64,000 nucleotides of DNA, from the NCBI GenBank assembly GCA_017543265.1, contig JAFYGI010000006.1, forward strand, positions 1-64,000, read 5' to 3'. The stretch comes from Bacillota bacterium. GTDB lineage: Bacteria; Bacillota; Clostridia; Lachnospirales; CAG-274. Position numbers and translations under genes: made by a program. The notes under the pieces were generated by a model. That model saw only the letters and a program-made list of their open reading frames with translations, ran no database searches and was not told the origin of the DNA. This document shows positions 1-15,274 of the stretch, piece by piece (the stretch's first letter is position 1; each line of letters opens with the position of its first letter).

Positions 1-3000
1 ATCTCGTTTTTGATGACCCTTCCGCTAAGGATGGCAATCTCAAACTTATCTTCGCCGTAATCCGACTTTTCGGGTTTCATTTCATGTTCGCCCACATCCA
101 TAGACGGATCGATACCGCCGAATACATCAAACTCTGCGCCGCCCATTTCGGGTATGCTTGGCATAGATACGTTGGTTTCCTTCGGGGGCTCATAGAATTT
201 ACAGCCCGATTCTACCTGACCCGTGCCTCTGCCGAAAGCATCGTAAGGCTCTATGGTAAGTCTGCCGCCGTCTCTGAAATATTCTTTTGCATTAAATGTT
301 GTTTTGTATTTGTAGCTGCCCTGCGGGTTCATCTCCCATGCTTTTATAAGATCGCCGCCCGCGGTGTAACTTCTGAGAACTACCTTTGTTACGCCGTAAC
401 CGTCCGTAACTTTAAGGTCTGCTTCAAGGCTGATGTCCTTATCCACTACATCTATACCTGTTTTGCTGTCCTCGTTGCAGCTGAACTCAAAACGGTCTAC
501 CCATATATTGTCATCCTGATAAGGGATAGCATATACGGTCAGTTTATCGCTTTCCGTTACGACCGTATGCTTTACAAAGGTCTTTTCACCGTCTGCCATG
601 ATAAGGTTTGTCATACGGCCTGCCATGGTATGCGGGACAAGTATCTCGAAATAACCGTTTTTATCCGTTGAGGCATAAGTATTATATTTTTTGCCGTTTA
701 TTTCCTGTGAGGTAGAACCCACAGCACCCACGGTTATATCCATACCCTCATATGCCTTATAGGTGGAACTGTCGTTGATATCCACCCTCTTGCTGCCGAG
801 AGTTCTCAATGTAAACGCAGGCTTTATAATACGTCCGCGTAATACGGTATTGGGTACCTTATCGTTTACGGGTACAAAATAGTATTTTACGGTCGCGCTG
901 TGATCCTGTACCTCAAAACTGAACGAATCACCGACATGTACGGTATATATGGGGTCTTTGTTCTCGTTTTTTGTCTTTGCGGAATCGTCATATACCCATA
1001 CACAGGTATATCCGTCCTCAAGCTGAGCAACAAGATTTACCGTATCTCCCGTTGTAAGGTTGTCTATCGAGTAATTTACGTTCTGTTTTGCCTGGTGTTC
1101 TTCTCTGTATTTTTCGCGGTATTCATTATATGCGGGGGTAACAGCATCGGCAAGTACCAGATCCTCATTCACCGCATTAAAACTGCTGCTGTTATTTATC
1201 AGACTCATAGCGTAAATTTCTCTGCTTGTTTTATCCGAAAGCCCGATATTTGTGGGCTTGTGCATTATAGTGCTAAGCAGATCCGCCTGCTGTTTATCTA
1301 AATGGGCAAATCCGTCTTTATACAACGCATCGCAGAAATCGCGCATCAGTTTGGTATAATAATACTGTTTTATCGTTACGCCGTTGTATGTGATATAACA
1401 ATTGCTTATGGTACTGTACTGATAGTTAAACGCAACTCCCATTTCGGCCCTGTATTTGTTCTTCTCGCTGCAAAGATAATTATACAGCTCGTCCGATATG
1501 GTTTTATATCCCGCATCAATAACATCCTGCGGTACTCCGCCGTTATCAAAATATGCAATAAGGCGCTTGTAATCAGCTGCCTTTAATTGTGTTTTATAGT
1601 CAAAGTTTGTGCTTGAAGCTTTATAGCCGGCAAGATCAAGGTAAAGCTGAGGTATTTCGTTTGTGAATTTATTTGTCAGACCGTTTTCCTCAACATACTG
1701 CTGATATGCCGAAACCAAAAGCTTATCCTTTTCTTCGTCCGAAACGGTTTTAATGAACTCTTCCTTTGACATGGGCTTATAATCGCTTTCGACACCGATA
1801 GCAGCCACCTTGCCGTGAACGATATTCTCGTCAAGGGTCTCCGTGGGGTTGTCGGAAACCATTGCATGGATAATGTTTACGGAATTATCGTCCCTTGCGA
1901 ACTTGACCTCTATAGTCATATTGTTGGAGAGGGAGATATCCTCGCCCTGCTTGTAGCTTTTGCCGCCTGCTGTTATGCCGGCAACATGATATCCCTGATT
2001 AGGTATTACGCTGAGACGCAGTTTGTCGCCCTTGTACCATACGCCGCTTGTAAGGTCGGTATCGTTGTAGACCTTATCGCCTATTTTCACAATACCGTTT
2101 TCGTAAGCCGCTATATGTATCTTGCTTACACGTTCTGTCCTGGCAACATTGGCTTTTGCGGTAAGCCTGCTCTTGGACTGATCTCCGTTGTAGATATAGT
2201 TTCTTATAAAATCACTGTCTGCATAAAAACCTTCGCCCGAAGATTTTGTAATGCTTTTGTTATTGCCTGTTATAGTAACGCTTTGTACGCTGCAGCCGTA
2301 TGTCCTGCCGTAATCGGTAAGATTGCCGTAAGCTCTCAGATAATTGTCTTTTATGAAATTACTCTTAGAGACCGTTGTGGTTGCGGGCAGGAACTCGATG
2401 GTATCGATACGGTTGCCTTCGCCTGTACCGTTGTATACATAGTATTTCAGTTTGTCGGGATTCTGTATAATAAAACTGAAATTTGTATAGTAGGCCCTTA
2501 AATTGCGTATTTCAACATTCATGGGATTGCCCCAGTCGCGGTAGCAACCTATCCAACATTTGACATCGGGCTTGCGAAGTCCGTTGGAAGCAAGTGTGCC
2601 GCCGTCTATCGATCCCGACTGCCAGCTTGACCATGCGGACTTTTTCTCAACCTCATAACCGTTAAGGCCGACATAACTTTTTTGTCTTCTGTCATAAGCC
2701 GATTTTTCTACATTATTTTTCCATTCCCATGAAACATATTCAACACCCGTCAGGTCACGGTAGATGTACCATGCGGGTTTCCATGTGGTTTCCGTATAAT
2801 CGGGGAAACCGACCTCTGAATAGTGCAATGTATGGTCGGCCATTATCGTAAAATACTCGGAACTTGCGTCCATAGCCTCAACGGGTGCATCATCCTCGGA
2901 ATATGCCGCAGGATTGCCGTTTGCATCGGTATCCGAAACATTTATAAGTGACTTGTTGTCGGTATTTGCAAACGGAAGTATCTCTATATGTGTCTTTTTG

Positions 3001-4256
3001 CCCGTAACATTTGCATTGTCTTCAGTCTCTGCCGTTATGTCAAAAGCGATAGACTCATCCAAATGTTTTTCGGCAATTTTATCTTTAAGTATAGGAACAT
3101 AAATTTTCTTTTCCGTTTCACCCGGCAGGAACATTATATCGCCCATAACGGGGGTATAGTCCTCGTCTGCTTTAGCGGTGTCCGCAAGGGTGGATACATA
3201 AACGCTTACATAATCGTTTGCGTTGCCCTCGCGTTTGAGAGTTACGGTAACACCGTCCGCATCGGAGAATACCTGATAATTGTCAAGCGCAAAAGAAATA
3301 TCACATTTTTCTACATTGTCGTTATCGTTTATATATATATTTGACGTACATTGGTCGCCTAATTCCGCACCGTTGGTCGGGTCGTACAATGCAAGTGAAA
3401 TTGCCTCCTGCGCCTCGTACTCGTCATCGTCGATAACTTTAACGTGGATAACTTTGTACGCTTCGCCGTCTGCAAAGTCAACTGTATATGCAAGACCGTC
3501 AAATGCAGCCGCTGCATCGTTCATAAGTTTAAGCTGCTCTTTATTCTGCGGCTCAAAAAAATCGTCAAGCGTATATTCCGCCGAATCGGTAACTACAGGC
3601 GTAGTTTTGCCCAAAGCCTCGTCACGCATTTTGTGGAGCGCCGAGGTATAATCGCCCATATCGTCGGAATATGCAGTAACGGGAGTTTCCTCCGTATTTT
3701 TTAAAGCCTCATCAATGCTTGTTACCGCAGGTGCTTCAATGTTTTGTGTATCGTCGGGATCGCTGCTTTCTGCTTCGACCTCAACAGCCGCGCCCGATAC
3801 GTTTTCATCAAGGGCATATATTTCAAAGCCCGCGCCCGATGCAAGTCTGTCCGTTGTGAACAGGACATCTTTGTTTTTTTCGATTTGTGTTTCAAGGATC
3901 GTCGGATTATCCTCGCTCTTTTTCAGGTCGTGATAAAAACCGAGCGCATCCTTTTCCTGCAAAATAAAGTCATCGCCGTATTTTGCGGAGATCTCTATTG
4001 CTTTTATGTTTACACTGGCATCGCCATCCGTACCGCCGCGCCTTAAAACGTAAAAGTCAAACTCTTTGCCTTCGCCCGTGATAATGTAGGGCGAAAGTAC
4101 CTCGAACACACCGCTTGGGTGTTTTGCGGCAAAGGCTTCACTTACCCTTAAGGCCGACACGTCTATCTCCTGCCCGGTATCCGCCCAGACAACGCTTGGT
4201 GCGGCGATAGTCAGGGCAAGCATAAACGCAATAAATCTTTTTCCCCTTTTTAGCAT
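1..4256 (-). CDS. Giant secreted Calx-beta domain protein (partial, 3' end outside window)
   Basis: The reading frame is open from an ATG at 4256 to the left edge, about 1418 codons without a stop. It starts with a classic signal peptide (MLKRGKRFIAF then a hydrophobic stretch ending VVWA-D). Two Calx-beta-like modules lie around residues 230-450; one ends in acidic turns (INDNDN) and the next carries the typical DADGVTVTLKR and ADEDYTPV patterns. Further on there is a bacterial-repeat/InlB-B-like stretch (HVAGITAGGKSYKQGEDI). The rest is unrecognised beta-rich sequence. No cohesin, dockerin or anchor is visible in the part present. Start supported by AAAGGGATGATTCT upstream. Probably an extracellular adhesion or carbohydrate-interacting protein; the function is inferred from architecture only. 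Being cut by the window, its C-terminus is unknown. Confidence 0.9.
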   Translation of the reverse strand, partial: MLKRGKRFIAFMLALTIAAPSVVWADTGQEIDVSALRVSEAFAAKHPSGVFEVLSPYIITGEGKEFDFYVLRRGGTDGDASVNIKAIEISAKYGDDFILQEKDALGFYHDLKKSEDNPTILETQIEKNKDVLFTTDRLASGAGFEIYALDENVSGAAVEVEAESSDPDDTQNIEAPAVTSIDEALKNTEETPVTAYSDDMGDYTSALHKMRDEALGKTTPVVTDSAEYTLDDFFEPQNKEQLKLMNDAAAAFDGLAYTVDFADGEAYKVIHVKVIDDDEYEAQEAISLALYDPTNGAELGDQCTSNIYINDNDNVEKCDISFALDNYQVFSDADGVTVTLKREGNANDYVSVYVSTLADTAKADEDYTPVMGDIMFLPGETEKKIYVPILKDKIAEKHLDESIAFDITAETEDNANVTGKKTHIEILPFANTDNKSLINVSDTDANGNPAAYSEDDAPVEAMDASSEYFTIMADHTLHYSEVGFPDYTETTWKPAWYIYRDLTGVEYVSWEWKNNVEKSAYDRRQKSYVGLNGYEVEKKSAWSSWQSGSIDGGTLASNGLRKPDVKCWIGCYRDWGNPMNVEIRNLRAYYTNFSFIIQNPDKLKYYVYNGTGEGNRIDTIEFLPATTTVSKSNFIKDNYLRAYGNLTDYGRTYGCSVQSVTITGNNKSITKSSGEGFYADSDFIRNYIYNGDQSKSRLTAKANVARTERVSKIHIAAYENGIVKIGDKVYNDTDLTSGVWYKGDKLRLSVIPNQGYHVAGITAGGKSYKQGEDISLSNNMTIEVKFARDDNSVNIIHAMVSDNPTETLDENIVHGKVAAIGVESDYKPMSKEEFIKTVSDEEKDKLLVSAYQQYVEENGLTNKFTNEIPQLYLDLAGYKASSTNFDYKTQLKAADYKRLIAYFDNGGVPQDVIDAGYKTISDELYNYLCSEKNKYRAEMGVAFNYQYSTISNCYITYNGVTIKQYYYTKLMRDFCDALYKDGFAHLDKQQADLLSTIMHKPTNIGLSDKTSREIYAMSLINNSSSFNAVNEDLVLADAVTPAYNEYREKYREEHQAKQNVNYSIDNLTTGDTVNLVAQLEDGYTCVWVYDDSAKTKNENKDPIYTVHVGDSFSFEVQDHSATVKYYFVPVNDKVPNTVLRGRIIKPAFTLRTLGSKRVDINDSSTYKAYEGMDITVGAVGSTSQEINGKKYNTYASTDKNGYFEILVPHTMAGRMTNLIMADGEKTFVKHTVVTESDKLTVYAIPYQDDNIWVDRFEFSCNEDSKTGIDVVDKDISLEADLKVTDGYGVTKVVLRSYTAGGDLIKAWEMNPQGSYKYKTTFNAKEYFRDGGRLTIEPYDAFGRGTGQVESGCKFYEPPKETNVSMPSIPEMGGAEFDVFGGIDPSMDVGEHEMKPEKSDYGEDKFEIAILSGRVIKNE

Positions 4257-4306
4257 AGAATCATCCCTTTCTCTCTTTTTTTTGTTTTCCGGTCTAAATA
4301 ACAAAA

Positions 4307-4346
4307 GCACACTCATAAAGATTTTATTATCCCGCAGAGTGTGCAA
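4307..4346 (-). promoter_or_regulatory. Leader hairpin, terminator-like
   Basis: In the leader of the Calx-beta gene an inverted repeat GCACACTC/GAGTGTGC is followed on the mRNA strand by TTTTGTT. It lies between the promoter and the start codon, so it could act as an attenuator. The 410-base gap 4257-4667 otherwise holds only the two divergent promoters; no known riboswitch motif was recognised. Confidence 0.4.
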
Positions 4347-4473
4347 AAAATATGATCTGTCTTTGAAATGCGCACAGTTATACGGTTTTGCTACATGTCT
4401 GAAATTATCAGTTTCATCGCGTTCCGTCAACTCCTTTGCGGTTGTGTTTCAAAAACATTTCCGTTATGTTACA

Positions 4474-4502
4474 ATGATAACACATAAGAAACAAAAAGTC
4501 AA
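4474..4502 (-). promoter_or_regulatory. Promoter of the Calx-beta gene
   Basis: On the minus strand TTGACT (4502-4497) and TATCAT (4479-4474) are separated by exactly 17 bases. They would give a leader of roughly 210 bases before the ATG at 4256. Confidence 0.55.
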
Positions 4503-4543
4503 TGTTTTATAATTGCATTTTTATATATTTTTATATCAATACA

Positions 4544-4572
4544 TTGACCTTTATTTTTTTTTATGGTAAAAT
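4544..4572 (+). promoter_or_regulatory. Promoter of the peptide-exporter-like operon
   Basis: TTGACC (4544-4549) and TAAAAT (4567-4572) with a 17-base T-rich spacer, about 95 bases upstream of the first gene at 4668. Confidence 0.55.
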
Positions 4573-4667
4573 ATTATAAATTATACAGAGTAAAAGGACT
4601 GCATCAAAAGTATCGGACAGCGGTATTCGGACGGTCTCAAAAACGGTTAAACGGATAAGGTGATAAA

Positions 4668-5165
4668 ATGCAGAAAAAAATATTGAAAACATTGTCTGTT
4701 CTTATAATTGTTGTCGGTTTTTTTGAAGTGTTGGGGGCAATATTGATCGGCGGGTTAGGAGCCGTTGTGTTTTCCCAAAAAGCCTTTTTTGAACAAACCG
4801 ACTTTTACGTTGAGATAACGAAAAGGATGAAAGAATATCCGTTGTTGACGGCACTGGATATGGATGCTTTAAGTCTGAGTACGGCTTTGCTTTTCTTATT
4901 AGTAGCCGATATTGCCGTAAAAGCAGTATGTAATTTTATTTACGGTACAAGCGGGCTGAAAGCCGCAAAGGGTATAAAAATAAGGCGTTCACGCATTATC
5001 GGCACAGCGGCTTTGGTAATAGGTATATGCAATGTGATAGATGATATTTTTGTGACGAGCGCAGGCATCCGCATATACCGCATTTTGTTTATTGCGGCAT
5101 CGGTGCTGTTTTTGTACTGCTTAAACGGCATTTCTCCTAAAAGAGGTGACAGGTATGAAAATTAA
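4668..5165 (+). CDS. Small multi-pass membrane protein, first gene of exporter operon
   Basis: 165 residues with about four hydrophobic segments: residues 5-35, 65-85, a third near 105-125 and a fourth near 130-150. Ends are basic. The start is supported by AAGGTG seven bases upstream. I do not recognise a family. Its last codons overlap the start of the following lipoprotein gene by 11 bases, which suggests coupled translation and a shared role with the lipoprotein and the exporter genes behind it. It could be an immunity-type or accessory membrane protein; that is speculation from position. Confidence 0.8.
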   Translation: MQKKILKTLSVLIIVVGFFEVLGAILIGGLGAVVFSQKAFFEQTDFYVEITKRMKEYPLLTALDMDALSLSTALLFLLVADIAVKAVCNFIYGTSGLKAAKGIKIRRSRIIGTAALVIGICNVIDDIFVTSAGIRIYRILFIAASVLFLYCLNGISPKRGDRYEN

Positions 5166-6264
5166 AAAAATCACCGCTCTTATTCTTTGCTTTGCAGTTT
5201 TAACGGGTTGTTCGGCAGGCAAAGACACGGCGGACACAATGGGAAACAGCAAAACAATAAAAATAGCCGTGTTAAAAAACAGCCGCGAACAGCAGGCATA
5301 TTTTGAAAAAGGCATAGAACGCGCTTATAAAGATGTGCTTGAAGAATACAAGGACAGCGGTTTTGATATACAATGCGAATTTTATGATAACAGCGGTACC
5401 TACGAAGAAGTGGAAAGGCTGACAAAAGAATTGACAAAAGACAAACAGCTTACCGCAATAGTGGGTTCGGACAATCCCGAATTTTCGGAAAGTCAGCTTT
5501 ATGTCACGCAAAAAAAGGGGAAAATACTGATAAGCCCCGGGCGTATGTATGACGACAGGCTGACAGCAAATGATGACCTGTGCTTTTATATGAGTTACGG
5601 AACGGAGGACATCGGCGAGCTGCTGATGAAGATAGCGGAAACGATTCCCGATGTCAATCTGGCGGTATGCACCGCAAACGACAAGATAACCAGACAGGAA
5701 ACACAGGGATTCAGAAATGCCGATTCCGCAAGGGTCATGGACTATGTCAACACCGACGAACTTAACGTTTATTTTGACAGGATAGTACTGCGGTGGAAAA
5801 ATCTCGGTATTAACGGCGTGGTTATGATGCCTCACTCGAATGACGGTTTTGAATTGCTGTACAGACTGAAAAGGGAGATGCCAGATCTCTGTGTTATAAC
5901 CGACTCCGATATGGATAGCCAGCGGGAGTACAACGAGCACCGTGAAATGTATAACAATTTTTATATCGCAGATATTTTTTCGGTAGACAAAAGCAATGCC
6001 GAATATGTCGAATATACCGAAAAAACAGGTCCGTTTGAAGATACTTGGGAAACACACGGCTATAACTCGTTCAGAATGATAGTTGACACCGCTGTCAAAA
6101 ACAATACCGCCAATCCGCGTAAAATTGCGGAGATAATACATACATCGGGCTATAAAGGCAAGGGAGAAACTTTTAATTTTGGAAAAAACGGGACCCTGAT
6201 ACCCGAAAGCTTCGAGTATTATGATGTGGGTAACTCGGAGGCAAAATTTATACCTGCAAAGTGA
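5155..6264 (+). CDS. Type 1 periplasmic-binding-fold lipoprotein (ABC substrate-binding-like)
   Basis: 369 residues from the ATG at 5155, chosen because AGAGG lies eight bases upstream; a GTG at 5146 is in frame but lacks spacing. The signal peptide ends in a lipobox (VLTGC). The mature part follows the LivJ-like type 1 binding-protein pattern: IKIAVLKNSREQQAY near the start, LTAIVGSDNPEFSESQ in the first lobe and a HGYNSFRMIVDTAVK stretch near the end. Binding proteins of this fold normally hand amino acids or small ligands to an importer, but no permease follows. Instead the neighbours are a peptide exporter. It may therefore sense or bind a ligand outside the cell for this system. The ligand is unknown. 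Confidence 0.8.
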   Translation: MKIKKITALILCFAVLTGCSAGKDTADTMGNSKTIKIAVLKNSREQQAYFEKGIERAYKDVLEEYKDSGFDIQCEFYDNSGTYEEVERLTKELTKDKQLTAIVGSDNPEFSESQLYVTQKKGKILISPGRMYDDRLTANDDLCFYMSYGTEDIGELLMKIAETIPDVNLAVCTANDKITRQETQGFRNADSARVMDYVNTDELNVYFDRIVLRWKNLGINGVVMMPHSNDGFELLYRLKREMPDLCVITDSDMDSQREYNEHREMYNNFYIADIFSVDKSNAEYVEYTEKTGPFEDTWETHGYNSFRMIVDTAVKNNTANPRKIAEIIHTSGYKGKGETFNFGKNGTLIPESFEYYDVGNSEAKFIPAK

Positions 6265-6275
6265 GGTTTGGTTTT

Positions 6276-7202
6276 ATGAAAGAACTTTTCAGAAAAGAGG
6301 CTGTTGACAGCTTTAAAAAACAATTTTTCACGGATAAAAGGCTTTCGCGCATTTCTTTTTCCACACTTGTTATGACTGCTTTGCTTATTGTGGGTCTGAA
6401 ACTGTTTTCGGTGTGGTTTTTTCACGGTACGGTCGTAAAATCCGTAAATATCGGGGGCGTACTGTATTCCTCCGCAGGTATGGAAAACGTATGCGCATTT
6501 AATTCGGGCATAGTAACAAATGTGAATGTACAGCCCGGCGATGAGGTCAAGGTAGGCGAGGTCCTGGTAGTTATACCCGATGAGTCATCACTCGGAGACC
6601 TGAGTTATAATGTGCAGTATGGCAATGATATTGCAGAGGACATAAAAGAATTTGACAAGGATAAAGCCATTGAAAAAGACAGGAACGAATATACGCAAAA
6701 CTCCTTTGTACGCTCGATCGCAGACGGTACCGTGGTTTCTGTGGCACAAAGGGGCAGCTATCTGGAAAGAGGCGATGTTGTTGCGCTTATCGCTGCAGAT
6801 GACAAAATGTTTGACAGAGATAAAGTTATAGTGTTTGTGCCAACCGAAAAAAAAGGCAATATACATAAAGACGACAGCGTTCAGATATCTCCCGACTATG
6901 CAAAAAGGGAAAAATACGGTTATATCCAAGGCCATGTTCACGAGATAGGCACGGATATAATATCAAAAAAAGAAGCGCTTGAACAGTATAATTTTTATAA
7001 TATTCCCAATATGCTGGATGAAAACAAAACTTACATAACCGTAATGATAGCCCTTGACGAAAACGAGGATTACGACGGCGGCCTTGCGTGGTCACAGAAA
7101 TCAAGTGAGAGTATTTCTCCCGAACTCGGTACATATTGCAGCTGCTCGATAATCACGGGTGAGCAAACACCGTTTGAATGGCTGTTTGGGGGTGGTGAAT
7201 AA
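6276..7202 (+). CDS. HlyD-like membrane fusion/adaptor protein of peptide exporter
   Basis: 308 residues from the ATG at 6276, with GAGGT eight bases upstream; a GTG at 6261 is in frame but poorly placed. A cytoplasmic basic N-terminus of about 35 residues precedes one membrane segment (about 36-55). Then come two lipoyl-like half motifs: NVNVQPGDEVKVGEVLVVIP and, after a short helical spacer, GTVVSVAQRGSYLERGDVVAL. The short spacer is typical of the NHLM-type secretion proteins rather than of long-hairpin HlyD. It would link the exporter to the outside face. The gene ends by overlapping the following ABC gene by one base. Confidence 0.85.
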   Translation: MKELFRKEAVDSFKKQFFTDKRLSRISFSTLVMTALLIVGLKLFSVWFFHGTVVKSVNIGGVLYSSAGMENVCAFNSGIVTNVNVQPGDEVKVGEVLVVIPDESSLGDLSYNVQYGNDIAEDIKEFDKDKAIEKDRNEYTQNSFVRSIADGTVVSVAQRGSYLERGDVVALIAADDKMFDRDKVIVFVPTEKKGNIHKDDSVQISPDYAKREKYGYIQGHVHEIGTDIISKKEALEQYNFYNIPNMLDENKTYITVMIALDENEDYDGGLAWSQKSSESISPELGTYCSCSIITGEQTPFEWLFGGGE

Positions 7203-9334
7203 TGAGGAAAAGCGTACCCGAAGTACTGCAAATGGAAAATGTCGAATGCGGAGCGGCGTCGCTTGCAATGATATTACGCTATTACGGCAATTACAGCGTG
7301 TCGCTTGAACAACTGCGCCTTGACTGCCATGTTTCAAGGGACGGCGTGACGGCCAAAGGCATAAAGACCGCGGCGGAAAAATACGGCCTTAAATGCAGGG
7401 TCTTAAAGGCCGACCCCGAAAGTATAAAGATGCTTGCAATGCCTGTCATTATTCACTGGAATATGAGTCATTTTGTTGTGCTTACGGGTTTTGACAAAAA
7501 TAATTATTATATAAACGATCCCGCAATAGGCAGTACAAAGGTAAGCCGTGACGAGTTTGACCATAGTTTTACGGGCATAGTAATGTTGTTTGAAAAAACC
7601 GCGGAATTCAAGTCCGAGAGAGGACGAAAAGAGACAAGTTTTACATATTTCAGAATAAAACCGTTTTTCCCTGCGCTGATTTTAATATCTTTTTTGGGCG
7701 CGGTCGTTACGGTAACAAGTATGATAATTCCGTACTTTAATTCCTCCTATATAGATATAATGCTCCTTGAAACCGATACATCGGGCTTTGAGGTATTTAT
7801 CATAGCGCTGCTGGCGGTTGTGCTCCTGCGCTTTTTTGCAGAGATAATTAAAGAAAAGGCATCTTACGAAACAGAAAGAAATATGAATATAAGTTTAAGT
7901 GTCGGTTTTATGGAAAAGATACTTAAACTGCCTATCATTTATTTTATGCAAAGAACTCCGGGCGAACTTGCAAACAGGCAGCTCGGCAGTTTTGAAACGG
8001 CACAGCTTGTATGCGAAAATTTGTCGCCGATATTCTTTCAAGCCGTACTTGTTGCGGTGTACTGCGCGGCGGCTTTTAAATTTGACGTGCCTATTGCGCT
8101 TATAGGCGTTGCGGCGGTGTTATTAAATACGGTCATCTCTTATATATCTTCAAATAAAATGAGCGATGTATCTGCAATAAACAAAAAAAACACGGGTATG
8201 TATTACGGCGCGCTGGTATCGTCGATAGATATGATGGATACCATAAAATCATCTGCCTGCGAAGAGTCGATTTTTGTCAGACTTACAGGTACGGCGGCAA
8301 TGTGTACACAGCCCCGTATACAGCGCGAAATAATAAAGCTGTATTCTTCCGCCGCGTTTGAAACGGTCAATTTTGCAGTTTCGGCGGCAATACTGCTGAC
8401 GGGTACTTTCCGTGTGCTGAATGGGGAGTTTTCCATAGGCGTTACCGTTGGTCTAATGGGTATGTTTTCGGCGTTTCTTGTGCCGATAGGCGCATTTATA
8501 AACTCCGTTTCCGCCATATTTGACCTTAAAAGTATCTATAACAGGACCGACGATACAATGCGCTATGACAACGAGGATATTTTCCTGCCCGAAAACATTG
8601 AGCAAACAAAAACAATGGGCAATGATATAAGGCTTGAAAATGTCGCTTATACCTACGGCGGCTCCGAAAAAAATGCGGTCACGGATATTTCCTTTGAAAT
8701 AAAAAAGGGTAAAAGTGTGGCACTTACGGGTGAAAGCGGCGGCGGCAAAAGCACCGTTGCAAAGATGATAGCGGGCCTTTTTTCCGAGACCGTGGGTCAT
8801 ATATACTACGGTGATGCGGAGAAAAAAGATATACATAAAAGCAATTTTTATTCAAAGATCGCCGTTGTCAGTCAATCCGTAATAATGTATGAAGGAACGG
8901 TATTTGACAATATCGCTATGTGGAATAAAAATGTCGAATATGAAGATGTGGTGCGTGCCTGCAAAACAGCCTGTATACATAATGATATAATTGCCAGAAA
9001 AGGCGCCTATTACGAAAAAATAACCGAGGGCGGCGCAAACTTTTCGGGTGGACAAAGACAGCGCTTTGAAATAGCGCGGGCACTTGTACGCAGCCCCGAA
9101 ATACTTGTGCTTGACGAGGCAACAAGCGCGCTTGATGCAAATACGGAAGCCGAGATAATGAAAAACATTACGTCGCTTGGCATAACGCTTATTATAATAG
9201 CACACAGACTTAACACGGTAAGAAACTGTGATGAGATACTTGTTTTCAAGGATGGCGGAATTGCGGAAAGAGGCACACATAAAAGCCTTTTGGAACAAAA
9301 CGGCATATATGCACGGCTTATAAAAGAGGGATAA
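7202..9334 (+). CDS. C39 peptidase-containing ABC peptide exporter
   Basis: 710 residues. The N-terminal C39 protease domain has Gln10, catalytic Cys16 (QMENVECG), His90 (SHFVVLTG) and Asp106 (YYINDP). A six-helix transmembrane domain follows (about 155-445). The nucleotide-binding domain has Walker A GESGGGKST at 510-518, signature FSGGQRQR at 614-621 and Walker B LVLDEATSALD near 635-645. Proteins of this kind cut double-glycine-type leaders and export the peptide; the layout with an HlyD partner and a second ABC gene matches the NHLM bacteriocin exporters. All catalytic residues are intact, so it should be active. No leader-peptide gene is visible nearby. Confidence 0.93.
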   Translation: MRKSVPEVLQMENVECGAASLAMILRYYGNYSVSLEQLRLDCHVSRDGVTAKGIKTAAEKYGLKCRVLKADPESIKMLAMPVIIHWNMSHFVVLTGFDKNNYYINDPAIGSTKVSRDEFDHSFTGIVMLFEKTAEFKSERGRKETSFTYFRIKPFFPALILISFLGAVVTVTSMIIPYFNSSYIDIMLLETDTSGFEVFIIALLAVVLLRFFAEIIKEKASYETERNMNISLSVGFMEKILKLPIIYFMQRTPGELANRQLGSFETAQLVCENLSPIFFQAVLVAVYCAAAFKFDVPIALIGVAAVLLNTVISYISSNKMSDVSAINKKNTGMYYGALVSSIDMMDTIKSSACEESIFVRLTGTAAMCTQPRIQREIIKLYSSAAFETVNFAVSAAILLTGTFRVLNGEFSIGVTVGLMGMFSAFLVPIGAFINSVSAIFDLKSIYNRTDDTMRYDNEDIFLPENIEQTKTMGNDIRLENVAYTYGGSEKNAVTDISFEIKKGKSVALTGESGGGKSTVAKMIAGLFSETVGHIYYGDAEKKDIHKSNFYSKIAVVSQSVIMYEGTVFDNIAMWNKNVEYEDVVRACKTACIHNDIIARKGAYYEKITEGGANFSGGQRQRFEIARALVRSPEILVLDEATSALDANTEAEIMKNITSLGITLIIIAHRLNTVRNCDEILVFKDGGIAERGTHKSLLEQNGIYARLIKEG

Positions 9335-9336
9335 AG

Positions 9337-11439
9337 ATGTCGGAGAAAGATGAACGCAACTACAGACAAACCGAATACGTTAACGAGGCATACTTTAAAA
9401 TATTAAATTCCGCTTCGTCCGATAACAACAGCGAAATTGAAGTTATTTTAAGGTATCTGGGGTACGATTACCGCGTAAAAGCCAATACGCTGAGACAGCA
9501 ATTTGAAGAAGTATTAAACGAACTTGGTTTGTCTTTCAGATTTGTCGAATTAAGCGGCGAGTGGTATACGGACAATATGCTGCCGCTTATGGTGTGGCAT
9601 AACGGCGAATATAAGGCGGTGCTGCCGGGTTTCAAGGGTACTTGTTATTATTATGACGGGAAAAATCGCAAAAGGATAACCGGGGAAAATGCGGACGAAT
9701 TTGACACAACGGGCATTTGCTTTTATAAAGGTTTCAAAAAAGGACAGGTAACAAAGGCGGGTCTGATCAAATATATGCTCTCATGTGTGAGAAAACGCGA
9801 ATATTTACTGATGTTGGCTGCGGCAGCACTTGTAACTTTATTTTCGGTATTATACGCACAAATGCAGCATCATATATTCCAAAGCCTTATCCCGTCGGGT
9901 TCCGGAAAATATGTTGCCTCAATAACGGCATTCCTGCTTGGACTGGCAATAAGCATGTTTGTTGTGAATGTGTTTAAAGGCGTTGTTTCGGCCAATATTC
10001 CGCTTGTAATAAGCGCAAATCTTCAGGGGGCGCTTATCGCAAGACTGCTTAGACTTAAACCGTCGTTTTTTGAAGAAAGGCAGTCGGGAAGTTTGGGTGA
10101 GAATATAATAAGACTTTCGGACGTGTCGGATATGATCTCGGGAGAAAATGTTTCGGCGCTGATGTCATTTGTGCTTTCATTTGTTTATATCGCAATGATA
10201 AGGGTAAATGCAAATGAGTTTACGCCTTATGTTTTAATGCTGTTTGCAATAACACTTGTTATGAATGTTGCAAATGCGCTTGTATGTGACCGATACACAA
10301 AGAAATTTCAAAAAAATACCAATGAGATGACAGGTTTTGTGTACGAACTGTTCGGCGGAATGGAAAATGTTAAGCTGAATAATGCCGATGCGACAATGTT
10401 TGATCGTTGGAGCGATTATTATACCGAAACATTGATGTCGCATAAAAAACCGCTTTTTATTAAACATTATAACGCATTTTACGCACTTATAAGTGCCGTA
10501 TATACGATGGCTATTTATATGATAGGTATAAGGTCGAATATAGGTGCGGCGGATTTTATAACTTTTATGGCGCTGTACGGTATGTTTGTTGCGACAACAT
10601 CGGGTATATCAAAGGTATTTGACTCGGTGGTAAGATACAATACGGCTTTTTCAAGGATAGAAGATTTTTTGCGGGCCGAGACCGAAGAAACGGGGAAAAA
10701 GGCCGATTTGAAGGGTATAGAAAAAGCTATAGCCTTTTCAAATGTCAGCTACAAATACCCCAATGCAGATAAAGACGTAATTTCGGATATGTCTTTTTCA
10801 ATACCTAAAGGCAAAAAAATTGGCATTGTCGGCAAAAGCGGCTGTGGTAAGTCTACGCTGCTGAAACTGCTTTTGGGTTTTGAACAGCCGTATTCCGGAC
10901 ATATTTTTATTGACGATACCGACCTTAACGAGATAAATCTGCGCAGCTACCGCAAAAATCTTGGTGTAGTCCTGCAAAATACAAAACTTATACCTGCGGA
11001 TATAATTTCAAATATCACACTTACAAGTCCGTCCGCATCCAATGACGAAGTAATGGCGGCGATAGAAGCAATGGGATTGAAAGGCGATATCGAAAAAATG
11101 CCAATGGGTCTTTCGACTTATATCTCTGAAGAAAATATGAGCATATCCGTAGGACAGAAACAACGTGTGCTGCTTGCGAGGGCTATAATATCAAAACCGG
11201 CTCTGCTTGTGCTTGACGAAGCAACAAATGCGCTTGACAACATAACGCAGGCTGCGGTAACAAGGTATATAGAAAACACAGAGACAACAGCGATAATAGT
11301 TGCTCACAGACTTTCAACAATAAAACAGTGCGATGATATAATAGTGCTTGATAACGGAAAGATAGCCGAACAGGGCAGCTATGACGAGTTGATAGCAAAA
11401 AACGGACAGTTTTATGAGCTTGTGAAAAATCAACTGTAA
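9337..11439 (+). CDS. Second ABC exporter subunit with degenerate C39-like domain
   Basis: 700 residues, two bases after the previous stop. Transmembrane domain about 155-440. Nucleotide-binding domain: Walker A GKSGCGKST at 499-507, Walker B LLVLDEATNALD, but the signature reads ISVGQKQR (604-607 SVGQ) instead of LSGGQ. The first 120 residues align by eye with the C39 domain of the neighbour: EVILRYLG matches AMILRYYG, and YKAVLPGF matches HFVVLTGF. The catalytic Cys and His are missing. This is therefore probably a dead C39-like, peptide-binding domain, and the pair likely works as a heterodimer. NHLM systems have the same two-ABC layout, though their second subunit is usually described differently at the N-terminus. 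Confidence 0.88.
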   Translation: MSEKDERNYRQTEYVNEAYFKILNSASSDNNSEIEVILRYLGYDYRVKANTLRQQFEEVLNELGLSFRFVELSGEWYTDNMLPLMVWHNGEYKAVLPGFKGTCYYYDGKNRKRITGENADEFDTTGICFYKGFKKGQVTKAGLIKYMLSCVRKREYLLMLAAAALVTLFSVLYAQMQHHIFQSLIPSGSGKYVASITAFLLGLAISMFVVNVFKGVVSANIPLVISANLQGALIARLLRLKPSFFEERQSGSLGENIIRLSDVSDMISGENVSALMSFVLSFVYIAMIRVNANEFTPYVLMLFAITLVMNVANALVCDRYTKKFQKNTNEMTGFVYELFGGMENVKLNNADATMFDRWSDYYTETLMSHKKPLFIKHYNAFYALISAVYTMAIYMIGIRSNIGAADFITFMALYGMFVATTSGISKVFDSVVRYNTAFSRIEDFLRAETEETGKKADLKGIEKAIAFSNVSYKYPNADKDVISDMSFSIPKGKKIGIVGKSGCGKSTLLKLLLGFEQPYSGHIFIDDTDLNEINLRSYRKNLGVVLQNTKLIPADIISNITLTSPSASNDEVMAAIEAMGLKGDIEKMPMGLSTYISEENMSISVGQKQRVLLARAIISKPALLVLDEATNALDNITQAAVTRYIENTETTAIIVAHRLSTIKQCDDIIVLDNGKIAEQGSYDELIAKNGQFYELVKNQL

Positions 11440-11508
11440 TTGTCGGAAGATCACAAGCAAAAAGGTTTTTTGACTTTGCCGAATTATATTATCATAGAAT
11501 TATCAAAA

Positions 11509-11715
11509 AAGGATAAAGAGCCTGCGATGAAAAATAACGGTCGGTCGGGGAAATCGATATTATAGCGGAAGAGGATCGGGATGAAATATTTGGTGACGAT
11601 CCCGACTTCAATACGGAAGACGAGGAAGAGTATTCCAACATAATACATATTCCGTTTAAAGATATAAACGGTAGAAGTGTAAATGTAAAAACAGAGTTCC
11701 TTATCAATCCTTGAG
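11509..11715 (+). pseudogene. Gene remnant, unrecognised
   Basis: A frame without a good start reads RSVGEIDIIAEEDRDEIF and continues through an acidic stretch to FKDINGRSVNVKTEFLINP and a stop at 11715. Upstream the same frame is closed by a TAA. The composition looks coding but there is no start or ribosome site. An almost identical DNA block (GGTCGGGGAAAT followed by YGATAT) recurs at about 13295, also at the head of a fragment. Function unknown. Confidence 0.35.
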
Positions 11716-11906
11716 ATTTGGAAAAAGAATAAAAATATCAGGGAGAAGATGGGTGGGTAATTTATCTACTCATAAAGGCGTCATAAAGGAGACTACGAAA
11801 AATCAGAAACAGAATATTGACAAATCTATGCTTTAGTGGTATTATTATTTTAAGAAAAGGAAATGCCGCCTTGATAGACGGTTAGCCCTTGGCTATGTTG
11901 CGATAA

Positions 11907-11950
11907 GATAACCGCTCAAGTTTGCAGACTGTGGGGCGGTTATCTTTTTG
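11907..11950. terminator. Inverted repeat after toxin gene; terminator for the plus-strand antisense RNA
   Basis: GATAACCGC (11907-11915) and GCGGTTATC (11936-11944) form a nine-pair stem. On the plus strand it is followed by TTTTTG, so it would end an RNA running antisense to the toxin tail; on the minus strand it lies directly after the toxin stop codon. Confidence 0.55.
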
Positions 11951-12035
11951 TGTTTTTGCTTCCAAAGGTGTATCCCAAGCCAAAGCAAGCGATACATAGC
12001 CCTAATATAGCTACAAAAGTATCTACTGTCAGCAT
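11940..12035 (-). CDS. Putative holin-like toxin peptide (type I toxin-antitoxin)
   Basis: A 31-residue peptide starting MLTVDTFVAILGLCIACFG and ending GSKNTKR: one hydrophobic helix followed by a short polar, basic tail. This is the pattern of the Firmicute 'putative holin-like toxin' family (Hol_Tox type), small membrane-active toxins silenced by antisense RNA. The ATG has a strong site AAAGGGGTG seven bases upstream. The stop lies at the edge of an inverted repeat (GATAACCGC/GCGGTTATC) of the kind found just after these toxins. A long leader of about 115 bases, partly self-complementary, fits a type I toxin mRNA. Confidence 0.8.
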   Translation of the reverse strand: MLTVDTFVAILGLCIACFGLGYTFGSKNTKR

Positions 12036-12159
12036 AATATCACACCCCTTTATCCTTGGATTTCCGACCGGGTCGGATCGTTATGTAATAACAGGTTCCT
12101 TGGAGTCAAGGGTTTAAATCGCCTACCGTATATTTTGGCGACATTTCCCGGAATTTAGA

Positions 12160-12188
12160 TTTTATCATATAAAGGCGGCTTTGTCTAT
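12160..12188 (-). promoter_or_regulatory. Toxin promoter
   Basis: Minus-strand TAGACA (12188-12183) and TAAAAT (12165-12160) with a 17-base spacer. The resulting leader to the ATG at 12035 would be about 115 bases and contains the palindrome CCGACCGGGTCGG (12064-12076 region) that could occlude or shape the ribosome site. Confidence 0.5.
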
Positions 12189-12460
12189 TCCTGAAATATT
12201 ACATTATGATTACAAAGCAAATTAAGAATTTTGGCACTATGTTTTGTAAACGTGGTGCTTTTTTGCGTGTTTTGCTGCCTTGTAATAAATATTGAAAAAT
12301 TTTTGCTCTTGGTACCGGTCGAGCAGAAATCACAAAACAATCACAATATTTTCAAGAAAATAAATACCGTTCCTATATCAAGCCAATGAATAATATTACA
12401 GTTTATTTGCTTTGAAACTTACAGGGAAAATTATCATATTAATCTAATCAAAGATGAAAA

Positions 12461-12590
12461 CTTTGCGAGCGTCAGCGGGTGCCCTGTTGGGGGTTAAAAA
12501 GTGGAGATTAGTGAAATCTCCCTTTGAAAACGCTCGAGGGAACCCGTTGGCTATGCTTGCAAGATAGTGAAAAAGCCCTTTTGGGGCGTA
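12461..12590 (+). ncRNA. Candidate structured RNA with H-type pseudoknot
   Basis: On the plus strand CGAGCGT (12466-12472) pairs with ACGCTCG (12530-12536). CAGCGGGT (12473-12480) pairs with ACCCGTTG (12542-12549, one G-U). The two stems interlock as an H-type pseudoknot. The loop between them carries a perfect hairpin GGAGATT/AATCTCC (12503-12521), and a GCCC-TTTT-GGGC hairpin follows at 12575-12587. Neither strand has a convincing gene here. Which strand is transcribed and what family this belongs to are unknown. Confidence 0.45.
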
Positions 12591-12817: not shown

Positions 12818-13171
12818 ATGTTAAAGTTACCGCCGCAGATTAAAGGTGAAAAGGCAAATGAAATAATAACTCGGTTCGTAAACAAAAGATTACTCGACCT
12901 TATGCGGGAGATCATTCTCGATGAGGTGAGTTGGAATTTAGTGCTGACGGGTCAATTAAACGGTGAAGATTTAGCAGCGAAAAGTTTTGACGAGCTTGTC
13001 GATATTGAAAGTTTAATTTACGATATGGATTTTGCGGAAAATATTTCGATGACATATTTGCCCGACAACTATCCTATTGAAAAAGCAAATTATAATTTTT
13101 TCGGACTGTTCAAACTTTTAAAGGCGAAGAAAGAATATGTCCCCGCACTTGCGATGGAGTATAAACTATGA
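12818..13171 (+). CDS. Hypothetical protein
   Basis: 117 residues from an ATG with GAGG nine bases upstream (AGAGGAAAAAATT). Soluble, acidic, predicted mostly helical (NEIITRFVNKRLLDLMREII). I do not recognise the family. It stands alone in a zone of fragments and palindromes, between the candidate structured RNA and a helicase remnant, so it may be part of a decayed mobile or defence island. Codon use looks coding. Confidence 0.6.
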   Translation: MLKLPPQIKGEKANEIITRFVNKRLLDLMREIILDEVSWNLVLTGQLNGEDLAAKSFDELVDIESLIYDMDFAENISMTYLPDNYPIEKANYNFFGLFKLLKAKKEYVPALAMEYKL

Positions 13172-14107: not shown

Positions 14108-15274
14108 ATGAAAAGAAAACTTATTTTTGCAGCAAGTGTTATTATGGCATCAAGCCTTATGTCTGTCTGCGCTTTTGCGGCGGATGTAAATATCGTAATT
14201 GACGGTAATACCGTTGCAAGCGATACGGAGCCGCAGATAACGGCAGAGGGACGCACTATTGTACCACTGCGCGTTATTTCCGAAGAACTCGGAGCAACGG
14301 TTGACTGGGATGCGGAAAACAAAAACGTTACTGCGCAAAAGGGCGACAGTACGCTTAAACTTGCAATAGGCGAAAATGTTATGACGGTTGACGGCAGCGA
14401 GATAGAGCTTGATTCTCCCGCGCAGATAATCAACAGCAGAACTATGGTGCCTTTAAGAGCGATTTCCGAAAGCTTCGGCTGTGAGGTTGAGTGGGACGGC
14501 GAGACAAAAACTGTTATAATCAACACAAACGCCGAGGAAACACCCGAGGATCTTCCGACGGAAACAAAAGAAGAAACATATAAGAGTAAAGACGGCTGGT
14601 CGGTAAAATACAACAGCACGCTTGTAAATGTAAACGAAAGTGATGACGCGGTAAGTTTTGTCTACACGGGCGAGAGCGCAGGAACAAATATGTTGACGAT
14701 AAGCTATCTCAAGGGCAAGTCTCCCGAGGAGGTGCTTGGCGAGGTAACAGCCGATTGGGATGGCGAAAAAACACTTCGCACCGAGGGCTATTTTGCAGGC
14801 GAAAACTGGGCATTTTTCAGGGATCTTATATCCGAGGGCGGTTCGGGACTTAATCAGCACTTTATCGCAGCAGAGTATAACGACGGTGTTATTCTTATCG
14901 AGGGTGTTTCTCACACAGATCCCGATGATGAAGAATATACCGTAAGCGATACAATGGCAAATATTCTTGACTCCATGGAGTTTGAAAATTATCAGCCGCA
15001 GAAAGAGTATGACTATGTTCCCGGCGTTTACACACAGACCTACACCGATGAAGTGGGCGGCGAAAAAGTGGAGACCACAAACACCGTTACGCTTAACAAA
15101 GACCATACGGCGGTTATTTCCATACAGGACGTTGTAGAGGGTTTATGGACAAGCACGGGCATCCGTATTGACAACGAGACATTTTACGAGTATACGATAG
15201 AGGGTGAAAAGCTTTATATAAACTTTGACGGTGTATGGAGCGAGTTTGAAAAAGAAACGGACGAAAAGAAGTAA
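14108..15274 (+). CDS. Secreted protein with copper-amine-oxidase-N (stalk) domain
   Basis: 388 residues, AAGGAGAAGAAAC before the ATG. Signal peptide of about 24 residues (VCAFA-A). A double stalk (CuAO_N1-type) domain occupies about 25-140, shown by EGRTIVPLRVISEELGATVDW and its partner NSRTMVPLRAISESFG. Such domains are structural modules of secreted clostridial proteins, not oxidases. The remaining 240 residues are unrecognised; the C-terminal part (TVTLNKDHTAVISIQ ... GVWSEFEK) looks like a small beta-barrel lipid- or polymer-binding fold. Converges with the next gene at a shared terminator. Confidence 0.88.
   Translation: MKRKLIFAASVIMASSLMSVCAFAADVNIVIDGNTVASDTEPQITAEGRTIVPLRVISEELGATVDWDAENKNVTAQKGDSTLKLAIGENVMTVDGSEIELDSPAQIINSRTMVPLRAISESFGCEVEWDGETKTVIINTNAEETPEDLPTETKEETYKSKDGWSVKYNSTLVNVNESDDAVSFVYTGESAGTNMLTISYLKGKSPEEVLGEVTADWDGEKTLRTEGYFAGENWAFFRDLISEGGSGLNQHFIAAEYNDGVILIEGVSHTDPDDEEYTVSDTMANILDSMEFENYQPQKEYDYVPGVYTQTYTDEVGGEKVETTNTVTLNKDHTAVISIQDVVEGLWTSTGIRIDNETFYEYTIEGEKLYINFDGVWSEFEKETDEKK

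Follow-up and report, generated by a model that had tools for sequence, protein, structure and literature searches.

The closest described relatives of the system reported here are the NHLM/NHLP exporters (TIGR03794, TIGR03796 and TIGR03797), in which an HlyD-like adaptor is followed by an ATP-binding cassette (ABC) transporter half fused to a C39 peptidase (C39-ABC) and by a peptidase-less ABC half, and which export leader peptides; Nif11 peptides have been described beside such a transport cluster in Desulfitobacterium hafniense (Haft et al. 2010, PMC2887384). A C39-ABC fusion is also typical of the double-glycine bacteriocin and pheromone exporters (TIGR01193, bacteriocin_ABC), whose short precursors carry a double-glycine (GG) leader. 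Here we describe a five-gene operon at positions 4668–11439 of a 64,000-nucleotide stretch of DNA, referred to throughout as the window, from a Bacillota bacterium of the GTDB family CAG-274 (GCA_017543265.1, JAFYGI010000006.1, positions 1–64,000 of the forward strand; contig C47 of genome G000). The operon has the NHLM order of transport genes and adds to it a gene for a type 1 solute-binding lipoprotein (SBP), an association that recurs across the Clostridia. Solute-binding proteins are textbook import subunits.

Relationship to NHLM and double-glycine exporters

The five operon genes all lie on the forward strand and are tightly packed. A small membrane protein (4668–5165) is followed by the SBP (5155–6264, start codon ATG at 5155), the HlyD-like adaptor (6276–7202, ATG at 6276), the C39-ABC half (7202–9334) and a second ABC half, ABC2 (9337–11439). 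The first two genes overlap by 11 bases, 11 bases separate the SBP and HlyD genes (an alternative GTG start at 6261 would give an overlap), HlyD and C39-ABC overlap by 1 base, and 2 bases separate C39-ABC from ABC2. Gene calls on the window reproduce the genes, coordinates, overlaps and gaps of an earlier sequence-only reading of this DNA. The C39 domain retains Gln10, Cys16, His90 and Asp106 by motif reading, and both ABC halves retain the Walker A, signature and Walker B motifs, so that the C39 peptidase is predicted to be active, as that reading had supposed; ABC2 has no C39 catalytic motifs.

The same reading had called the system NHLM-like. This is appropriate as a likeness, but all three transport genes fall below the NCBI curated NHLM cut-offs: the adaptor scores 110.3 bits against TIGR03794 (cut-off 156.2), C39-ABC 689 bits against TIGR03796 (cut-off 853.3) and ABC2 518.8 bits against TIGR03797 (cut-off 709.4). 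Because every curated cut-off is missed, we treat these genes as relatives of NHLM and do not file the system as NHLM. Two further differences from NHLM/NHLP systems are the SBP lipoprotein and the linkage to a giant protein with S-layer homology (SLH) repeats, described below. The peptides differ too. The Nif11 leader family TIGR03798 has no match in the genome that contains the window, peptides of relatives score only 13.5–14 bits against the NHLP leader TIGR03793 (cut-off 50.9), and precursors in the window's branch carry GG leaders that are short and acidic, unlike those of NHLP and Nif11 peptides. Some distant SBP-equipped relatives (L150, L151 and L158) do share leader-peptide export of the NHLM kind, with precursors recognized by eye as Nif11-like beside them. 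Similarity to the TIGR01193 exporters is likewise below the cut-off (350 bits against 524), and unlike these the window has two different ABC halves, an NHLM-type HlyD-like adaptor and the SBP. The genome also encodes a third C39 exporter, at 146 kb on contig C47 (L019, G000:C47:138000-156000, 3227–12573), which has no SBP; ahead of it lie SpoIIE/RsbW-like genes and GG peptides that terminate in zinc-ribbon cores of a CPxCGG-like type.

The lipoprotein is linked to the exporter across the Clostridia

An HlyD-family profile was run over 295 genomes of the order and then over 391 genomes of the class, with a threshold of 125 bits. The linkage is seen in several ways. First, the order scan gave 13 loci above threshold, and every one has an SBP; the class scan added 13 more, in families f34, f35, f41, f45, f46, f73 and f100, again all with an SBP, located either before HlyD or behind ABC2. 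In total, the SBP adjoins the exporter in 26 of 26 loci from 25 genomes and nine families. Second, within the window's own GTDB family, an SBP gene neighbors those for HlyD, C39-ABC and ABC2 in G000 (two loci), G002, G004, G010, G012, G022, G025, G028, G029 (where the contig ends in C39-ABC), G030 and G036. Third, the linkage holds in the reverse direction, with all 24 SBP matches above 100 bits adjoining such an exporter (in G034 as a decayed copy). The 11 weaker matches that were read are ordinary LivJ proteins beside LivHMGF importers, and three more weak matches (G073, G104 and G625) are exporter-linked. Finally, no importer permeases (LivHM) or importer ATPases (LivGF) are present in the window operon or in any annotated exporter locus.

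The lipoprotein homologues above 100 bits thus travel with exporters and not with importer permeases, and the pairing that the sequence-only reading had picked out at this one locus is conserved and not accidental. No description of it was found in the open-licence literature on exporters with binding proteins, on NHLM, or on SLH proteins with C39. It could still be supposed that this is an ordinary NHLM-type bacteriocin exporter, with an SBP recruited for import or present by chance, as the clear NHLM kinship of the transport genes and the amino-acid importer fold of the SBP might suggest; the 26 of 26 loci in nine families already contradict this, no importer permease is found in the annotated exporter loci, and we consider it very improbable. 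A two-way device, raised in the sequence-only reading, also looks unlikely, given that the lipoprotein comes without an importer permease.

The SBP persists when other parts of the system change. It is retained in three sets of family f5 (L038, L039 and L129) whose first ABC half lacks a C39 domain, and in the three loci where the cargo is of Nif11 type. This fits a component of the exporter better than one of a single peptide pathway; judged from gene content, the SBP thus most likely has its role at the exporter itself rather than in cleaving the peptide. The three f5 loci are SBP-HlyD-ABC-ABC sets with a first ABC half of 559–585 aa, and cargo was not found in them. Decay of the operon is visible in the window's genus, where L026 (G034:C5, 2947–4491) holds a frameshifted SBP and an HlyD remnant without ABC genes; a giant gene and two peptides survive elsewhere in that genome (C6, L122).

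Double-glycine peptides lie beside giant surface proteins

Divergent from the operon is a gene for a giant secreted surface protein (3–4256, reverse strand), which was missing from the finding of the sequence-only reading. The frame is still open at base 1 of contig C47, and the C-terminal end is lost at the contig start; the 1,418 aa that are present include a Sec signal peptide, Calx-beta domains (E 2e-26) and a beta-rich region. Full-length relatives in the window's branch are about 2,665–2,957 aa long and combine Calx-beta domains with C-terminal SLH repeats. Residues 435–800 are predicted to form beta-sandwich domains; the first of these resembles jelly-roll or carbohydrate-binding modules, but the similarity (Z up to 9 over about 115 residues) is insufficient for naming a function. 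Contig C48 starts with an SLH end and was considered as the missing part of the window's giant, but no peptide follows it and we make no such claim.

No open reading frame (ORF) for a double-glycine peptide was found by leader-rule scans anywhere in the 64-kb window, in agreement with the sequence-only reading, which had seen no peptide. The idea of a system without a precursor is not supported, as relatives and the same genome carry GG peptides. In the stretches of this genome that were read for short GG-leader ORFs, a search that the earlier reading had proposed, three of this kind lie on contigs C5 and C28, with canonical acidic leaders. The C5 peptide belongs to the second SBP-exporter locus of the genome (L018), where a 41-aa precursor, MKKEESKNEELVEIDIDSCEEEISGG-SLKDVHTRPTQSVDN, is encoded directly behind ABC2. 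The two C28 peptides lie around the remnant of a giant gene. At this place (L121, G000:C28:113000-132000, 7227–9077) they flank a collapsed giant reduced to its signal peptide and SLH tail, between which lies, on the other strand, a gene for a 401-aa serine recombinase.

The core motif SL[KR]DxHxR recurs in G036, G004, G029, G030 and G012. A motif search for the type I core found it neither in the window nor in the loci of its branch that the search covered, and attention was therefore turned to the DNA behind the giant genes. In the window's branch a peptide lies behind the giant in G002, G010, G025 (two) and G028; the window's genus likewise has giants with peptides, on both sides of the giant in G034 and at two giants in G031, and G046 adds a further case from the family. 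Altogether, a GG peptide follows the giant in 16 of the 20 giants of relatives, 12 of them under a strict leader rule with the peptide no more than 300 bases downstream and four (L122, L123, L124 and L169) under a looser one; on control DNA the strict rule returned 0 peptides in 271 kb. It was predicted in advance that GG peptides would be found behind the exporter-linked giants of families f34, f41 and f35, and this held in all three, within 30 bases of the stop codon. No peptide is within reach of the giants of G005, G006 and G026, genomes that are also without the SBP. The cores fall into a few types, several of which end in K-S/G-R/K-I/M/V.

The absence of a peptide from the window is well explained because the giant gene is cut at the contig end and the peptide lies behind the giants in relatives. 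It is thus most likely a contig-end artifact, and the window's own giant would have a GG peptide neighbor at a position off the contig.

Some of the giants have regulatory neighbors. Genes for GHKL kinases lie beside giants or the exporter in G002, G005, G025 and G035, with LytTR regulators in three of these, and GG pheromones are a known class. The exporter could accordingly release quorum pheromones, sensed by a GHKL/LytTR (AgrC/AgrA-like) pair, with the giant protein as the regulated output and the SBP modulating release by nutrients, and such a role would be compatible with the explanation favored below. However, the G005 pair accompanies a giant that has no peptide, and the six GHKL matches of the window's genome lie away from its operon, from the C5 locus and from the C28 peptides. 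A pheromone role seems unlikely to us.

The lipoprotein and its possible role

The SBP has an LTGC lipobox with the lipidated position at Cys19 and matches Peripla_BP_6 (E 1e-7). Its predicted structure is a good type 1 SBP model (mean pLDDT 82), closest in fold to PDB 4mlc/4q6b and to LivJ proteins (VIA-align Z 30–31 over 318–326 residues). It shares fold and lipidation with the LivJ/HAAT binding proteins (4mlc/4q6b, 4gnr), but is encoded with an exporter and without importer permeases. It differs from them also in that, by alignment, the ligand positions of the LivJ Ser79/Thr102 type appear not to be kept in the window's family, the Thr position being variable there and kept in some f5 relatives. 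The ligand is therefore probably different from that of LivJ. The same fold serves as a receptor, not in import, in AmiC and in the ligand-binding domains of class C G-protein-coupled receptors; unlike these, the SBP is tied by gene order to a peptide exporter, and direct sequence kinship with them is not shown. In three loci (L027, L028 and L044, from G030, G004 and G029 respectively) a domain like Lgt, of the prolipoprotein diacylglyceryl transferase family, is fused N-terminally to the SBP, with the lipobox straight after the membrane part; the Lgt-like protein is encoded by a separate gene in L018, L025, L049 and L152.

We slightly favor the interpretation that the operon encodes an exporter of short peptides with double-glycine leaders, equipped with an extracytoplasmic receptor of its own, and that in this branch the cargo is tied to the giant S-layer-anchored protein. 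It builds on what is seen directly: the gene content, the SBP-exporter linkage, the peptide genes in relatives and in the same genome, their position beside the giant, and the intact C39 and ATPase motifs. By analogy with the biochemistry of known peptidase-containing ABC transporters, the C39 domain would cut the leader after Gly-Gly, and the ABC1/ABC2 pair (ABC1 being the C39-ABC half) would move a core peptide of approximately 15–50 residues out past the HlyD-like adaptor. The lipidated SBP, on the outward-facing side of the membrane beside the exporter, would act from outside, and would most likely tune export by binding either an amino-acid-like ligand or one end of the peptide that has been exported. 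The exported peptides would belong with the giant SLH-anchored protein, and probably act on, with or near it. On present sequence comparisons, it is a little better than an even proposition that the system functions in the manner of double-glycine peptide exporters, with a receptor added on the outside.

The SBP could instead be a handler of peptides and not a sensor, catching the cleaved peptide and either passing it to the giant or retaining it to protect the cell, in the manner of some bacteriocin immunity lipoproteins. Lipid anchoring beside the exporter agrees with this, the Lgt-like fusions in three genomes stress extracellular membrane anchoring, and since the LivJ amino-acid pocket positions appear not to be kept in the window's family, the ligand may exceed an amino acid in size. 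Nonetheless, the SBP is retained across entirely different peptide cores and in the absence of C39, and the SBPs directly before the f45 exporters are 54–55% identical to the protein of PDB 4mlc/4q6b, which was solved with free leucine (4q6b is the leucine complex of 4mlc). That protein comes from Desulfitobacterium hafniense, and the Nif11 peptides described there beside an NHLM cluster would agree with a link to an exporter. Peptide handling is a possibility that we rate as rather improbable; receptor-type control is our first choice, with peptide hand-over as the alternative.

There are several points that weigh against the receptor interpretation. First, the HlyD profile was built from SBP-linked loci and so favors the recovery of such loci. 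Second, SBP-free NHLM-type exporters occur in the same order (L126-L128 and L130-L133), and the tree of the ABC proteins needs several label changes, has open forks and allows repeated gain or loss of the SBP. Third, G031 and G046 have a giant and a peptide and no SBP match. Fourth, the window itself has no peptide, the expected one beside the giant being off the contig. Finally, a leucine-like ligand cannot be transferred to the window's SBP, as far as its pocket can be read from alignment. A single origin of the SBP linkage was also considered, and is not proposed; the ABC tree fits one origin with losses and repeated recruitment alike.

Other features of the operon and its relatives

The giant gene and the operon are separated by a divergent intergenic region (4257–4667), which holds a promoter-like site on the forward strand (4544–4572, TTGACC-17-TAAAAT, with TG preceding the second hexamer) identified by consensus match alone. 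The 31 promoter-like sites counted in this region exceed the shuffle mean of 20.8 but are not evidence of function. The membrane protein at the start of the operon (165 aa) has several hydrophobic segments and no family match. Membrane proteins of comparable type, 206–214 aa long, are present in the L018 and L025 clusters, and comparison with them did not show homology. Downstream of the operon are a 117-aa protein whose sole match is a weak one to the NusA C-terminal repeat (12818–13171) and a secreted protein (14108–15274) that has the N-terminal domain of copper amine oxidases (PF07833); neither shows any sign of belonging to the operon.

The sequence-only reading had seen no modification enzymes. 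Candidates are present in some relatives, namely a single-module nonribosomal peptide synthetase (NRPS), a radical SAM protein and the Lgt homologue. The NRPS (C-A-T-TE, for condensation, adenylation, carrier and thioesterase) accompanies the SL[KR]DxHxR peptide loci, in L018 (9814–13302), L025/L053, L021/L049, L054, L055, L057 and L174. Loci of the first core type also carry the Lgt homologue, and in L152 (family f46) an Lgt-like protein, the SBP, the exporter, an MFS-type protein and an LPG-synthase-like protein are found together.

Implications

The SBP-exporter linkage is firm, which does not hold for the functions proposed for the SBP and the giant protein. More broadly, the loci described here may represent a widespread class of clostridial peptide exporters controlled externally by a dedicated SBP, one branch of which supplies double-glycine peptides to a giant S-layer protein, although we offer this only tentatively. 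For genome mining, the loci indicate that the hidden neighbors of giant SLH genes, and not those of the transporter, can be the cargo peptides. The leucine-bound crystal structure 4q6b may become linked to the biology of exporters. The retention of an SBP by peptide exporters of nine clostridial families would imply that an export system can include a receptor on the outside.

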